From positions 1-7,750 of the forward strand of contig QNCB01000045.1 in the NCBI GenBank assembly GCA_003644335.1: a stretch of DNA of 7,750 bases, given 5' to 3'. A program made the position numbers and the translations under genes. This document shows, in pieces, positions 1,882 through 5,330 of this stretch. How positions within the stretch are numbered: the stretch's first letter is position 1; the number at the start of each line of letters is the position of its first letter. A model generated the notes under the pieces. The model worked only from the letters and a program-made list of their open reading frames with translations. It had not been told where the DNA came from and ran no database searches. The DNA comes from Planctomycetota bacterium (GTDB taxonomy: Bacteria > Planctomycetota > Phycisphaerae > SM23-33).

Positions 1882-2353
1882 TGTATAATACTCCCCAAAA
1901 ACTGGGCGCTGGGCTAAGGTACATTTGTCGTCTTTACCGAAGGAAGTATCGGGAGACGAACAAATGCAAAACAGACGACGGAAACATAATGCAAAATTCA
2001 AGGCTAAGGTGGCACTGGCGGCAATCAAAGGTGGCAAAACCATCACCGAGCTGGCTAGCGAGTTTGAGGTGCACCCCAGCCAAATCAACAAGTGGAAAAA
2101 ACAATTACTCGACTCGTCGATGAAGGCATTCACCAGCCGATCGGAGCGAGACCAAAAGTATCGGGAGCAACTCACCGACCGGTTATATCAGCAAATCGGC
2201 CAGTTGAAGGTAGAACTCGACTGGCTCAAAAAAAATCTGGACTTGACGATTGAGCAAAAACGAATGGCTATCGAACGCGACAATTTGAAGATTCCCCTCA
2301 GCCGTCAGTGTGAGCTTCTTGGCCTGGGACGCAGCAGCTTGTACTACCGCCGT
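1882..2353 (+). mobile_element. IS3-family insertion sequence remnant (left end, orfA, start of orfB)
   Basis: The inferred left end begins TGTATAATACTCCCCAAAA, resembling IS3-family terminal repeats that start TG and carry a CCCCAAAA block followed by a TTGGAC-like stretch (here CTGGGCG). It is followed by an IS3-type orfA and the first ~30 residues of orfB, up to the motif RQCELLGLGRSSLYY. The DDE catalytic region and the right end are absent: sequence of a tyrosine recombinase starts within ~35 nt of the last IS3-like codon. The element is therefore dead. The exact left boundary is an estimate, because no right end or target duplication is left to test it. Confidence 0.75.
1884..1889 (+). 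promoter_or_regulatory. Consensus -10 box TATAAT inside the IS left end
   Basis: A perfect TATAAT lies two bases inside the presumed IS end, about 75 nt upstream of the orfA ATG. No convincing -35 hexamer is found 16-18 nt upstream in the flanking DNA. IS3-family members such as IS911 and IS2 are known to carry a -10 in the left end and a -35 in the right end, so that a strong promoter forms only when the ends join in the circular intermediate. That reading fits but is inferred. Confidence 0.4.
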
Positions 2354-2437
2354 CGGCGTCGAGCGTATCGGATCGACCGGCTGCAAGGACGAACACGCCG
2401 ACCGGCGGCGAACCAGGCGGGCATTAACGGAAGATGA
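1964..2437 (+). pseudogene. IS3 transposase OrfA fused in frame to a truncated OrfB
   Basis: OrfA is the DNA-binding regulator and OrfB the DDE transposase of IS3 elements. I chose the ATG at 1964 because GGGAG (1951-1955) sits 8 nt upstream; a TTG at 1925 in the same frame has no such site. From that ATG, residues ~10-50 are the OrfA helix-turn-helix (KFKAKVALAAIKGGKTITEL, then VHPSQINKWKKQLL), and residues ~70-95 hold the leucine-zipper-like GQLKVELDWLKK. The frame then runs straight into OrfB sequence ending at LGLGRSSLYYRR. The last ~28 codons are arginine-rich read-through of the neighbouring integrase DNA in the wrong frame. An A8 tract (2228-2235) lies at the normal OrfA/OrfB frameshift position. 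No transposase activity is expected. Confidence 0.85.
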
Positions 2438-3234
2438 AATCGCCAGGTTACTCAAGGCGGCAAGGCTTCGCCCTCTGGCTGAACCGGGGCGTCCTACCGT
2501 GCGGAAGCCCAAGGACAAGCGCAGGGGCCGAAGCACGTGGTACAAGGCTGAGTTGACCTTCGAGATGCTCGATGCCGCCTACCAGCGGGGCCGGGATGTG
2601 CTGGCGGATGACCTCACTCGCATGGCCGAGTTGGACATGCTCGGCCGGCAGCGCGAGTTGACGTACAAAACGCTCGTCCTGACCGGCCCGCGAAAGGGGG
2701 AACTGGCCAGCCTGACCGTCGGACAGATTGTTCTCGATGGCCCGCATCCGTTCGCTGAGCTGTTGGCTAAGGACGAAAAGGCCGGTCGTGGGGCGAAGAT
2801 TCCGCATGCGCAGCGACCTGGTGGTCGATTTGAAAAACTATCTCAGCCAGCGTCTGCGTGTGGAACAGCAGGATGCCATACGATCAGGCGAGACAATGCC
2901 GATGCGACTCCCGGCGAACATTCCGCTGTTCACCGTGCCTCGCGACTTCATCAAAATATTTGACCGCGACATAGCCGCCGCTGGGATCGCCAAACACGAT
3001 GAACGTGGCAGGGTAGTAGATATTCACGCTCTCCGTCACACCTTCGGCACGCACCTCAGCAAAGCGGGCGTCACGCCGCGTGTGGCCATGGCTGCGATGC
3101 GACACTCGTCTCTCGATCTGACGATGAATATTTACACCGACCCGGCACTGCTGGATACCGGCGATGCGGTCGATGCACTGCCGGCCTTTTCGACTAACAG
3201 CCCCGTCGCCCTTCTCGCCGGTAACAAGGCCTGA
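2388..3234 (+). pseudogene. Tyrosine recombinase (phage-type integrase), N-terminally truncated and frameshifted
   Basis: This is the catalytic half of a site-specific integrase. In the first frame (2388-2805) are RRRTRRALTEDEIARLL, then YKTLVLTGPRKGELASLTVG with the first catalytic Arg (the usual TGLR is TGPR), and DEKAGRGAKIP with the beta-hairpin Lys. Sequence similarity then continues one base later in a second frame (2806-3234): MRSDLVVDLKNYL, LFTVPRDF, HALRHTFGTHL (H-x-x-R), MRHSSLDLTMNIYTD (His and the nucleophilic Tyr). All catalytic residues are therefore encoded but split by an apparent single-base insertion near 2790-2806. The N-terminal core-binding domain is missing, replaced by the IS3 remnant. 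The family resembles integrases I recall from planctomycetes. It reads toward the tRNA-Gly att copy at 3449, as expected of the integrase of an element inserted there. Confidence 0.88.
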
Positions 3235-3237
3235 ATC

Positions 3238-3289
3238 CTTGCACGAAAGCTTGCACGTGATTTCGGGCGCTTGTACGAATCCTTGCACG
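3238..3289 (+). repeat. Four CTTGYACG direct repeats, candidate integrase arm-type sites
   Basis: CTTGCACG occurs at 3238, 3250 and 3282, and CTTGTACG at 3270, giving start-to-start spacings of 12, 20 and 12. The array is thus two paired units of about 21 bp, 32 bp apart, agreeing at roughly 18 of 21 positions. It begins 4 nt after the integrase stop and lies ~160 nt before the att copy, where tyrosine-recombinase arm sites are often found. Alternatively it is the decayed 3' coding end of a longer integrase. Function is inferred. Confidence 0.5.
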
Positions 3290-3402
3290 TACGGCAGGCT
3301 GGGGAAGACAATTGCTGTCATGCCGTGGCAAAATCAAGAGCTGGCCATACAATTCTCAACCAATGATGATTCGTCATAAGCCTTTAACACTGCGTAAGAA
3401 AG

Positions 3403-3436
3403 ACGCCTCCTGGCAACTGCTGTCACCAGGAGGCGT
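3403..3436. terminator. 11-bp stem-loop next to the att copy, terminator-like
   Basis: ACGCCTCCTGG (3403-3413) pairs perfectly with CCAGGAGGCGT (3426-3436) around a 12-nt loop. On the plus strand TTATTGT follows; on the minus strand CTTTCTT follows. Neither is a clean T-run. It lies 13 nt beyond the 3' end of the tRNA-Gly fragment, so it could once have terminated a tRNA transcript on the minus strand, or the integrase transcript on the plus strand. Confidence 0.5.
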
Positions 3437-3448
3437 TATTGTCAAAAC

Positions 3449-3491
3449 AGCGGGCGATGAGATTCGAACTCACGACGTCCAGCTTGGGAAG
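3449..3491 (-). other. att copy: 3' half of tRNA-Gly (left repeat)
   Basis: These 43 bases are identical to 5259-5301, which cover the intact tRNA-Gly from the base before the anticodon loop through the anticodon loop, variable region, T arm and acceptor 3' strand. Beyond 3491 the match ends after one mismatch and three more bases. The 5' half of the tRNA (D arm, acceptor 5' strand) is absent, so this copy cannot make a tRNA. A tRNA 3'-half direct repeat is the standard scar of integrase-mediated insertion into a tRNA gene. Confidence 0.9.
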
Positions 3492-3609
3492 ATGAGAAAC
3501 GCGCCATAACGCTTGACAGGTAAGCAAGTTACAACGCGTTTTTCAGGGCTTTTTGAGAGTTTCAATTGGTTAACAAGTCACAAAGCGGTCAATAACAACT
3601 CGGTATCAA

Positions 3610-3801
3610 GTGACGACAGACCCACTTTGTGACCCATTATTTCAGGATTTCCAATTAATGGTCGCCAATTCCAACTGGGCCAAACTGCCAGATACAATCA
3701 AGTCTGGTATATTCGCGATTCTCGGCGGGAGCATAGATTCACAGAGGCTTGGCATGAGCTTGTTCTCGAAATGGCTGTGGCAATCCATTGGAATGTTTTG
3801 A
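3610..3801 (+). pseudogene. Remnant of a small integrase-associated ORF
   Basis: An open frame of 63 codons from a GTG at 3610 has no convincing ribosome binding site. Its middle reads NWAKLPDTIKSGIFAIL, which resembles a WxxLPxxIKxGIxAM-type C-terminus that I recall in short hypothetical proteins next to planctomycete integrases. That recollection is not verified. The motif TDPLC near its start also occurs in the short ORF at 5061-5213. The tail after GGS looks unrelated, so this is probably a decayed 3' fragment and not a working gene. It sits just inside the left att repeat, so it would mark the left end of the inserted element. Confidence 0.35.
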
Positions 3802-3845
3802 AAAATCTGAAATCTGAAATTTTATAGCAGAATCCTCTTGCAATC

Positions 3846-3861
3846 TGGGAATAGATTCCCA
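3846..3861. promoter_or_regulatory. 16-nt palindrome just before the ATPase start codon
   Basis: TGGGAAT and ATTCCCA pair perfectly around AG and end two bases before the ATG at 3864, covering the position where a Shine-Dalgarno sequence would lie. No other good ribosome site is visible. It could be a repressor operator, or an RNA hairpin hiding the GGGA that would serve the ATG at 3864 or the one at 3873. The palindrome is seen; the role is inferred. Confidence 0.4.
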
Positions 3862-3863
3862 CA

Positions 3864-5021
3864 ATGCAGAGCATGATATCACGCATCTACAAACAACAGA
3901 TTCGAGACAAACTTAGCAAATTCCCAGCCGTTGCCATTCTGGGATCCAGGCAGTGTGGTAAAACCACGCTCGCACAACAGTTCAATGGTGTATATTTCGA
4001 TATGGAGACCCAGGGCAGTGAGGCCCGACTTGACGCGGAATGGGAGACACTTGCGGCGGGGAACAAGCTCATCGTCATTGACGAGGCCCATCAGGCTCCC
4101 AAGGTGTTTTCTCGTCTGCGGGGAACCATCGACGCCGACCGCAAACGCAACGGACGATTCCTGTTGCTGGGATCCGTTTCGCCAGCCCTTATGCAGAATG
4201 TATCCGAATCGCTTGCCGGGCGGATGGGACTGGTCCACATGACACCCTTTATCATGCCAGAACTCAAAGCTGGTCAGTTGGATGATCTGTGGTTGTGCGG
4301 CGGATACCCTGACGGCGGCATCTTGGAATCACGCATGTTCCCCCAGTGGCAGCGGAGCTACCTTGAGATGTTAACTACACGAGACCTACCCACATGGGGT
4401 CTGTCCGCCAAACCCCGACAGACCATGCGGCTGCTGGCAATGCTCGCCGCCATCCATGGCCAATCACTCAACGCCTCCCAACTTGGAGCTTCTTTGAGCT
4501 TGGACCACAAGACGGTCTTACGCCACTGTGATTTCCTGGAAGGAGCATTTCTCATCCGGCGGCTTGGCCCATACTTCACCAACATAAAAAAACGGCTGGT
4601 CAAGACCCCACGCGTTTACTGGCGAGACAGCGGCCTACTCCATTCGCTGATGAATGTGGGCGACCTCGAACACCTTTACCGTCAGCCTTGGCTAGGCCAT
4701 AGCTGGGAAGGTTTCATCATCGAGCAGACCTTGGCTACCATCGCAGCCATCGGCAAATGCGTCCAGCCATTTTTCTTCCGTACATCCGATGGCCTGGAAC
4801 TGGACCTTGTCCTCGACTGGGGCACCGAGCGTTGGGCGATCGAAATCAAGCTTACCAGTAACCCTTCGCCAGACATGATCGACCGCCTGCACAAAGCTGC
4901 CGACATGATCGACGCTGACAAACGCATCCTCGTCTGCCGCATCGCTCGAAAAATCGAGAATGAAAATTTGCTAGTCATAAACCCCACGGGATGGATCAAG
5001 GAAATCTGTTTTCTCAAGTAG
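3864..5021 (+). CDS. AAA_14/DUF4143-type ATPase with nuclease-like C-terminus
   Basis: A 385-residue P-loop protein of the widespread, mostly uncharacterised ATP-binding AAA plus DUF4143 family. The N-terminal ATPase shows Walker A GSRQCGKTT (residues 27-35), Walker B LIVIDEAH (69-76) and a sensor-1-like FLLLGSVS (99-106). The central part is a helical, winged-helix-like stretch (about 180-235). The C-terminal DUF4143 region contains YWRDSGLLHSL and then LELDLVLD with Asp314 and AIEIKL with Glu327 and Lys329, a D...ExK arrangement typical of the restriction-endonuclease fold. No signal peptide or membrane segment is seen. Length is normal for the family and the frame is intact. I chose ATG 3864; ATG 3873 is a real alternative, since neither has a clear Shine-Dalgarno site. 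It is the only intact gene between the tRNA-Gly att repeats, so it is the apparent cargo. Cellular function is unknown; nuclease activity is not proven by the motif. Confidence 0.9.
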   Translation: MQSMISRIYKQQIRDKLSKFPAVAILGSRQCGKTTLAQQFNGVYFDMETQGSEARLDAEWETLAAGNKLIVIDEAHQAPKVFSRLRGTIDADRKRNGRFLLLGSVSPALMQNVSESLAGRMGLVHMTPFIMPELKAGQLDDLWLCGGYPDGGILESRMFPQWQRSYLEMLTTRDLPTWGLSAKPRQTMRLLAMLAAIHGQSLNASQLGASLSLDHKTVLRHCDFLEGAFLIRRLGPYFTNIKKRLVKTPRVYWRDSGLLHSLMNVGDLEHLYRQPWLGHSWEGFIIEQTLATIAAIGKCVQPFFFRTSDGLELDLVLDWGTERWAIEIKLTSNPSPDMIDRLHKAADMIDADKRILVCRIARKIENENLLVINPTGWIKEICFLK

Positions 5022-5060
5022 AAGGATGTAGGCATAGTAAAAACAGCGGTAAAACGCAAA

Positions 5061-5213
5061 ATGAAAAGAAAACCATCGAAGGGCCGGAAGATAAAAAAGA
5101 TTTCGCGTCTGCGAAAGCCCGAAGACATGCCATTGGTCCGTTCACGGAAGAACCAAACGAGCGACCCGACTGACCCACTTTGCTTTTTTCGAGGCTTTTT
5201 GGGGAAGAATTGA
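5061..5213 (+). CDS. Small basic hypothetical ORF, possibly a gene fragment
   Basis: A 50-codon ORF starts at ATG 5061, 39 nt after the ATPase stop, without a clear ribosome binding site. The first half is strongly basic (MKRKPSKGRKIKKI, then RKPEDMPLV); the second contains TDPLC and a phenylalanine-rich end. The change in character suggests a broken N-terminus joined to element-end sequence. TDPLC is encoded by the same 11 bases as in the remnant ORF at 3610. It could be a short cargo gene or non-coding; I do not recognise a function. Confidence 0.25.
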   Translation: MKRKPSKGRKIKKISRLRKPEDMPLVRSRKNQTSDPTDPLCFFRGFLGKN

Positions 5214-5258
5214 AAAAGGCCAAGTTTCTAACTCGACCATTTTCAATGGGTTACAAAA

Positions 5259-5301
5259 AGCGGGCGATGAGATTCGAACTCACGACGTCCAGCTTGGGAA
5301 G
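5259..5301 (-). other. att copy within the intact tRNA-Gly (right repeat)
   Basis: Identical over 43 bases to 3449-3491. In the tRNA this block begins at the last base of the 5' anticodon stem and ends one base past the acceptor stem. After insertion at this side, the tRNA is restored, as is usual for elements that target tRNA genes. Confidence 0.88.
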
Positions 5302-5330
5302 CTGACATTCTACCACTGAATTACGCCCGC
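5260..5330 (-). tRNA. tRNA-Gly (anticodon CCC)
   Basis: The minus strand folds into a full cloverleaf of 71 nt. The acceptor stem GCGGGCG/CGCCCGC is perfect. The D stem is ATTC/GAAT. The anticodon stem TCAGC/GCTGG (one U-G pair) encloses loop TTCCCAA, anticodon CCC, decoding GGG. The T stem GTGAG/CTCAT (one G-U pair) encloses TTCGAAT. CCA is not encoded; the discriminator is T, followed by a T5 run. The 3' half is duplicated at 3449-3491, so this gene is the insertion site of the neighbouring element. It is transcribed in the same direction as gcvPB, 317 nt downstream of it. Confidence 0.95.

Follow-up and report, generated by a model that had tools for sequence, protein, structure and literature searches.

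Among the elements described so far, two kinds come closest to the locus analyzed here. CIMEs, as characterized in the cited account, arise by tandem accretion, lack genes for integration and transfer, retain the flanking att sites and are stacked with another element at a tRNA gene (PMC5704250). The closest precedent is provided by the Dehalococcoides ssrA islands, which, according to the cited study, lie in tandem at one RNA gene, are bounded by repeats of the 3' end of that gene and carry variable cargo, with 15 of them lacking an integration module (PMC3146451). More generally, the islands collected by Islander have an intact tRNA at one end and a displaced fragment at the other, those with the crossover in the anticodon loop being assigned to subsite A, and, as stated in that source, the Islander filters require an integrase and a length of at least 2 kb (PMC4383910).

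The segment between positions 3449 and 5301 of the window, that is, of the whole Planctomycetota-like stretch of 7,750 nt that we analyzed, appears to belong to this kind of element; hereinafter, we denote it unit B, and the older element to its left, element A (Table 1). Unit B retains att sites, namely, two 43-bp cores, a left arm and a weaker right arm; it holds no integration genes of the tyrosine type searched for and no transfer genes, its contents being one AAA_14/DUF4143 gene and two small frames that yield no Pfam match at E ≤ 0.01. Thus, unit B works like a CIME and is CIME-like by its features, but differs from the CIMEs as portrayed in the cited account in that it consists of one gene only, has no ICE or IME parent that we could find and adjoins a relic of a different type (PMC5704250). 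Because no parent was found, we call it CIME-like rather than place it in a defined CIME lineage. With the Dehalococcoides islands, unit B shares the tandem arrangement, the 3' repeat bounds and the missing integration module; however, those islands, in the published description, involve a serine recombinase, the tmRNA gene and a crossover in the T-loop, whereas the family of unit B involves tyrosine integrases, anticodon loops of tRNAs and another phylum (PMC3146451). The target of unit B is tRNA-Gly, not ssrA. As in the islands collected by Islander, the tRNA and the displaced fragment are in the same orientation, but no tyrosine recombinase was detected inside, and the unit is only 1.85 kb long. 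By their description, unit B can also be likened to the tycheposons, tRNA-bounded cargo islands of marine bacteria, and is set apart from them because tycheposons carry their own tyrosine recombinase. The kind of element is already known, going by the accounts of CIMEs and the ssrA islands (PMC5704250, PMC3146451). What may be new, on weak grounds, is that the unit holds a single gene, that a conserved arm adjoins several tRNAs, and the taxon itself; among the titles and abstract openings listed from the open-licence literature, we found no description of such elements in Planctomycetota.

Table 1. Features of the window (positions in nt)
Feature	Coordinates	Strand	Basis or remark
IS3-type orfA-like fragment	1925..2333	+	start of frame 1925-2437; HTH_Tnp_1 37 bits
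Relic tyrosine integrase, element A	2334..3234	+	blocks 2334-2804 and 2791-3231 in different frames; N-terminal part missing
Putative tRNA-side arm of element A	3235..3448	+	L130 matches; strong hairpin at ~3402-3437
Left core, displaced 3' half of tRNA-Gly(CCC)	3449..3491	-	exact 43-base repeat
Left attachment arm of unit B, ~150 bp, conserved in relatives	3492..3641	+	arm model
Cargo gene, AAA_14 + DUF4143, 385 aa, PADLOC candidate PDC-S01	3864..5021	+	Pfam, PADLOC
Probable right attachment arm of unit B	5163..5258	+	right-end model; motif at 5167
Right core, within the intact tRNA	5259..5301	-	exact 43-base repeat
tRNA-Gly(CCC), intact, target gene	5259..5330	-	anticodon at position 33

A Pfam scan of the window identified PEP carboxykinase in the left flank and gcvPB followed by gcvPA in the right flank. 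Between the flanking genes, the order is an IS3-type orfA-like fragment, a tyrosine integrase relic, a hairpin, a 43-bp core, the 1.8-kb unit and the intact tRNA. Among the best 80 loci listed, which may not include the closest relatives, the gcvPB protein is 76% identical to that of one Planctomycetota MAG and 74% identical to that of a Phycisphaerales MAG, and none of the loci of six relatives has a tRNA-Gly adjoining gcvPB. In another genome (G040), with a tRNA that perfectly matches that of the window, a 16-bp exact core remnant lies 108 bp from the tRNA at a different chromosomal place (L113, 17867).

The 43 exactly repeated bases sit in a 51-base pair of 96% identity, and when up to 3 mismatches are allowed, the 42-base piece 3450-3491 is matched at just these two places in the window and nowhere in 200 shuffles. 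On the tRNA, the repeat covers everything from base 30, with which the 5' strand of the anticodon stem closes, to the 3' end; the block shared by the units of G093 and G324 has its limit one base further on, where the loop begins. These limits at the edge of the anticodon stem and loop point to a crossover in the anticodon loop, that is, in subsite A as this position is termed for islands (PMC4383910). A previous sequence-only reading of this DNA had noted an exact 43-bp repeat of the tRNA 3' half at 3449-3491 and 5259-5301 that begins at the base before the anticodon loop, and had proposed a site-specific insertion with a crossover there; our analysis confirms the repeat and its starting point and supports the proposed mode of insertion.

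The left end of unit B turned out to belong to a family. We sampled 397 genomes, drawn evenly from a larger group, of the class of G001, which is probably Phycisphaerae because two Phycisphaerales MAGs (G002 and G004) belong to it. The tRNA is present, at up to 3 mismatches, in 39 of the 397 genomes, and up to 20 kb were fetched around each of these 39 tRNAs, with several stretches ending at a contig end near the tRNA. In four of the 39 (L120, L125, L130 and L136, with two copies in L136), there are further core-like copies upstream (at least 68% of the 43 bases). Window positions 3529-3634 match L125 at 70%, and 3574-3634 match L136 at 77%, with the distance to the core equal within one base. 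The arm motif, CAAGTGACGACWGACCMANTTNGTGACC, occurs, at up to 3 mismatches, in 26 places in 25 of the 397 genomes, and the reversed pattern in none; for a longer form of the motif, the order of G081 gave 18 genomes out of 114 and a phylum-wide sample of 294 genomes gave none, and searched viral contigs contained no arm motif. An arm model built from 18 relatives, with the window left out, locates 3499-3639 with a score of 85.5 bits, compared to 11.2 bits for the best of 200 shuffled windows.

In 17 of the 26 arm places, the tRNA T-loop lies at a fixed upstream place; in two others (L241 and L247), only the anticodon side of the tRNA half remains, L236 is degenerate, and six places have no recognizable tRNA half. 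ARAGORN identifies the intact tRNA as Gly(CCC) in L125, L136 and L233 and as Arg(TCT) in L232; the remaining Arg, CAT and GTC labels were read from the anticodon loops. We read these data as indicating that the arm motif mostly adjoins 3' halves of tRNA-Gly(CCC) or of tRNAs interpreted as Arg and others. Several arm-like matches without a tRNA half (L250, L279, L280, L282 and L283) share an upstream GCTCACGCA and similar neighbors, and perhaps represent another target or element type. Conversely, arms of other types follow the same tRNA-Gly core in L293, L294, L295, L298, L299 and L305, one of these alternative types being common to G042, G063 and G081, and another to G056 (twice), G383 and G069.

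At the right end, the signal is weaker. The motif CGACTGACCMA has, at up to 1 mismatch, two sites in the window (3614 and 5167), both in unit B, and two sites were found in one of 200 shuffles. A right-end model built from six sequences (L306, L296, L298 and L237, together with L126 and L307, beside which no integrase is known) places 5163-5253 first in the window, with 13.3 bits (E 0.057) vs 8.0 bits for the best of 200 shuffled windows. The integrase of L306, a 395-aa frame (Phage_integrase, 89 bits), terminates within the motif, 109 bp before the tRNA; the distance between motif and tRNA is 97, 111 and 101 bp in L296, L298 and L237, respectively, each with an integrase or a piece of one nearby, and 89 bp in the window. 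Among 45 tRNA-Gly loci, 9 have the motif no more than 400 bp away from the tRNA, and one (L307) has it on the control side; of the 45 loci, 40 had at least 200 bp to inspect, and five had been chosen from genomes already of interest. When a 25-base right-arm motif was tested against shuffles, 0 of 60 were as good for L304, 0 of 60 for the window and 2 of 60 for L245; in the other six of the nine right ends, this motif did no better than shuffles. Taken together, sequence comparison suggests, with moderate confidence, that unit B has both arms. A frame that ends at 5173 stops in the same frame and place as the L306 integrase; we considered it as an integrase tail and did not accept it, the piece 5061-5213 having found no relative.

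Immediately to the left of unit B, there are remains of another element. Two blocks of a tyrosine integrase, overlooked in the sequence-only reading, lie just outside the left repeat. Each aligns at 59% identity with a 515-aa frame in L111, the first over residues 209-370 and the second over residues 366-515 (Phage_integrase, 49 bits for the L111 frame, compared to 37 bits for the second block in the window). In place of the first ~208 residues of this integrase stands the orfA-like fragment, which scores 74 bits with the IS3 profile, under the cut-off of 160. Farther to the right, 3235-3277 and 3381-3437 match L130 of genome G283 at 79% and 75%, with the order kept, and in L130 these sequences run into an intact tRNA-Gly. 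The hairpin has a predicted energy of -25.7 kcal/mol in the window and -29.3 kcal/mol in L130, and in each case none of 200 shuffles was as good. L130 also has a far core copy that matches 38 of the 43 bases, and the 2.7 kb in between hold a Fic-like protein that matches PADLOC candidate PDC-S24 (631 bits). Given the arm matches and the hairpin, the best interpretation of 3235-3448 is that element A ends here with its tRNA-side arm, so that the DNA to the left of 3449 appears to be the end of an older element, and two insertions are stacked. The previous assignment of 3400-3448 to the chromosomal flank and the single simple insertion that it implied are not supported: this sequence matches the end of another element, and unit B, which belongs to a family sharing a conserved arm, forms the upper of two stacked layers. 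The search for an empty tRNA-Gly site that had been proposed as a check gave nearly the expected result in another species: in G283, which has the A-type arm without unit B, the hairpin arm (like 3381-3437) directly joins the intact tRNA-Gly. The similarity of the arm of element A to either end of unit B is not above that of shuffles (176, 67, 129 and 148 of 200). We considered the integrase of element A, the nearest one to unit B, as the cognate enzyme of the unit and rejected it because the arm of element A lacks the motif at up to 1 mismatch and the gene is broken.

The cargo gene is the sole sizeable gene inside unit B, and its product matches the Pfam domains AAA_14 (76 bits) and DUF4143 (126 bits); the presence of one intact AAA/DUF4143 gene and no recombinase (of the tyrosine type searched for) is as originally noted. 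The family of this protein is very large, with 7487 proteins at E ≤ 0.001 among 7999 candidates scored. A Walker A motif is present at residue 27, and near residue 312 there is an acidic ExK stretch, which we take to be a putative nuclease motif. Among DUF4143 relatives in viral contigs, six stretches were found, none of them confirmed, and a search for solved structures of the cargo found none. Because it fits the PADLOC model of PDC-S01 (best score 265 bits), the cargo probably is a candidate phage-defence gene. According to the cited survey, PDC-S01 is the fourth most common defence across prokaryotes, with transfers between domains reported, and validation is pending for most such defence candidates (PMC12988326).

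Other tRNA-Gly(CCC) sites with the same core around different cargo, a search for which was proposed in the sequence-only reading, were indeed found. The unit in G093 carries a metallophosphatase, two PPDK_N proteins and a Glu/Leu dehydrogenase; the cargo in G324 includes AbiEi, AbiEii and a TOTE primase-helicase; that in G234, a two-component pair and redox proteins; that in G069, an Eco57I-type methylase and a spore photoproduct lyase-like protein; and that in G231, a sigma factor, a WYL regulator, a C39 peptidase and a dockerin protein. Two tRNA-Gly cores in G042 enclose a 1.6-kb unit (L293, 7004-8640) in which yebC is the one recognizable gene and no integrase was detected; the arm model found no arm in this unit, the arm being of another type. 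Stacking recurs as well: in G081, a 157-kb part of a single contig contains five cores, all in the same orientation; in G069, an integrase is followed by a core with the arm, 4.9 kb of sequence and a second core with the arm; and in the IMG/VR viral contig L150 (8386-12067), a phage-type integrase is followed by two cores that enclose a 2.3-kb unit, which has an integrase of its own.

When unit B was searched at full sensitivity (E ≤ 1e-3) with a profile built from 17 integrases, no tyrosine recombinase was detected inside it. Among the 14 core-to-core units, which lean to short ones because both ends had to lie in the fetched stretches, 10 show no tyrosine recombinase, two contain a fragment and two an intact frame (L239 of G081 and L150); the profile was partly built from the latter two integrases, so that both were found by construction, and Pfam finds both too. 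One more unit (~25 kb, G365:C16), with an integrase at the tRNA end, was left out of this count. In the seven complete units with the left arm of unit B, the corresponding numbers are five, one and one, L239 being the sole intact integrase, located near the left arm and in the other orientation. Remnants at the tRNA end were identified in G231 (84 aa, with no Pfam match, 51% similar to the integrase piece in L235) and G256 (219 aa), and in the second unit of G324, the profile found none, yet a stretch near the right end is 42% similar to an integrase tail. No element combining the left arm of unit B with an integrase at the right end was found, including in further fetched stretches. In L124, L127, L139, L144 and L150, integrase frames traverse the tRNA core and have the same core-encoded end peptide, AGDGIRTHDVQLGKLAFYH.

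The repeats, the left-arm family, the lack of a detectable integrase inside and the stacking on the end of element A are shown by the sequences. At a probability of about 60%, we favor a CIME-like unit that was inserted by a tyrosine integrase on the older element A and kept its cores, left arm, probable right arm and defence-like gene while the integrase is gone. The enzyme that joined the tRNA half of the circular unit with the chromosomal tRNA would most likely have been an L306-like integrase, whether supplied by a helper or encoded by the unit itself and subsequently lost. The crossover would have occurred at the anticodon loop of tRNA-Gly(CCC), a site already held by element A; with the insertion, the 3' half brought in by the unit would have completed the tRNA again, and the 3' half that had been there before would have become the copy at 3449. 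The integrase gene, which in other elements at the same tRNA is located just before the right arm, would have disappeared from unit B, having apparently been lost rather than absent from the start, and a helper integrase might still excise the unit. Decay is favored because integrase remnants are present at the right ends of other units. The frequent lack of the integrase speaks for a dedicated satellite lifestyle, in which units with this arm normally have no integrase and are moved in trans by integrases that reside at the same tRNA and bind the same arm motif. This possibility, which we consider unlikely on balance, accommodates the five of the seven complete left-arm units without a detectable integrase and the one with a fragment; the failure of a second profile to detect an integrase up to ~37 kb beyond the arm in G398 and G365 and 36 kb in G069; the motif in the right arm of integrase-bearing elements at the same tRNA; and the 5 of 27 arm sequences that have an integrase or its relic across the core from the arm. 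However, the remnants at unit ends point to loss, short units are overrepresented in the count, a weak match of 96 aa was obtained with the first profile downstream in L241 of G365, and parents may exceed the length of the stretches read. The original suggestion of a cis-mobilizable or satellite element moved by the integrase of another element partly stands: the CIME- or satellite-like nature and the lack of an integrase inside hold, and the movement by another element's integrase is possible, although the nearest integrase is broken and the arm beside it lacks the motif of the unit.

Alternatively, the relic integrase and the DUF4143 unit could have been parts of one composite element, the inner core copy being the product of a later rearrangement; the relic does adjoin the unit, and core duplication within an island can occur. 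This is very unlikely, given that the arms to the left and right of 3449 differ in type and each is found without the other at the tRNAs of relatives: G283 has the A-type arm alone, and G093 and G324 have the B-type arm with no A-type arm seen. It is extremely improbable that the 3' half of the tRNA was duplicated locally, with no site-specific recombination involved. Although tRNA remnants without a clear unit exist, such as the 16-bp exact one in G040, 108 bp from the tRNA, the same arm abuts 3' halves of different tRNAs, each starting from the anticodon loop, and in G093, G324, G231 and G234 an intact tRNA marks the end of a complete unit. A broader conjecture, which we regard as distinctly doubtful, is that Phycisphaerae possess a cassette-like form of gene capture, in which a constant arm combined with a swappable tRNA half turns any cargo into integrase-less units; resident integrases would then stack these units, using the anticodon loops of several tRNAs as insertion sites. 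Integron gene cassettes are characterized by a foldable attC site that IntI recognizes; the cores here are tRNA halves.

Elements like unit B bear on how tRNA islands are counted: because the Islander filters, as stated in that source, reject islands that lack an integrase or are shorter than 2 kb, such units go uncounted (PMC4383910). The conserved arm makes unit B recognizable, and led to a family with defence genes, a restriction-modification protein and metabolic genes. This arm is a short DNA signature with which it can be tested whether orphan tRNA islands move by the integrases of other elements, and its occurrence beside seemingly different tRNAs makes it testable how integrases switch the target while keeping the arm sites. 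If the doubtful conjecture on gene capture were true, the cargo of the capture system would range from one defence gene to a seven-gene redox stretch, and the system would resemble an integron with the integrase supplied by any element at the same tRNA.
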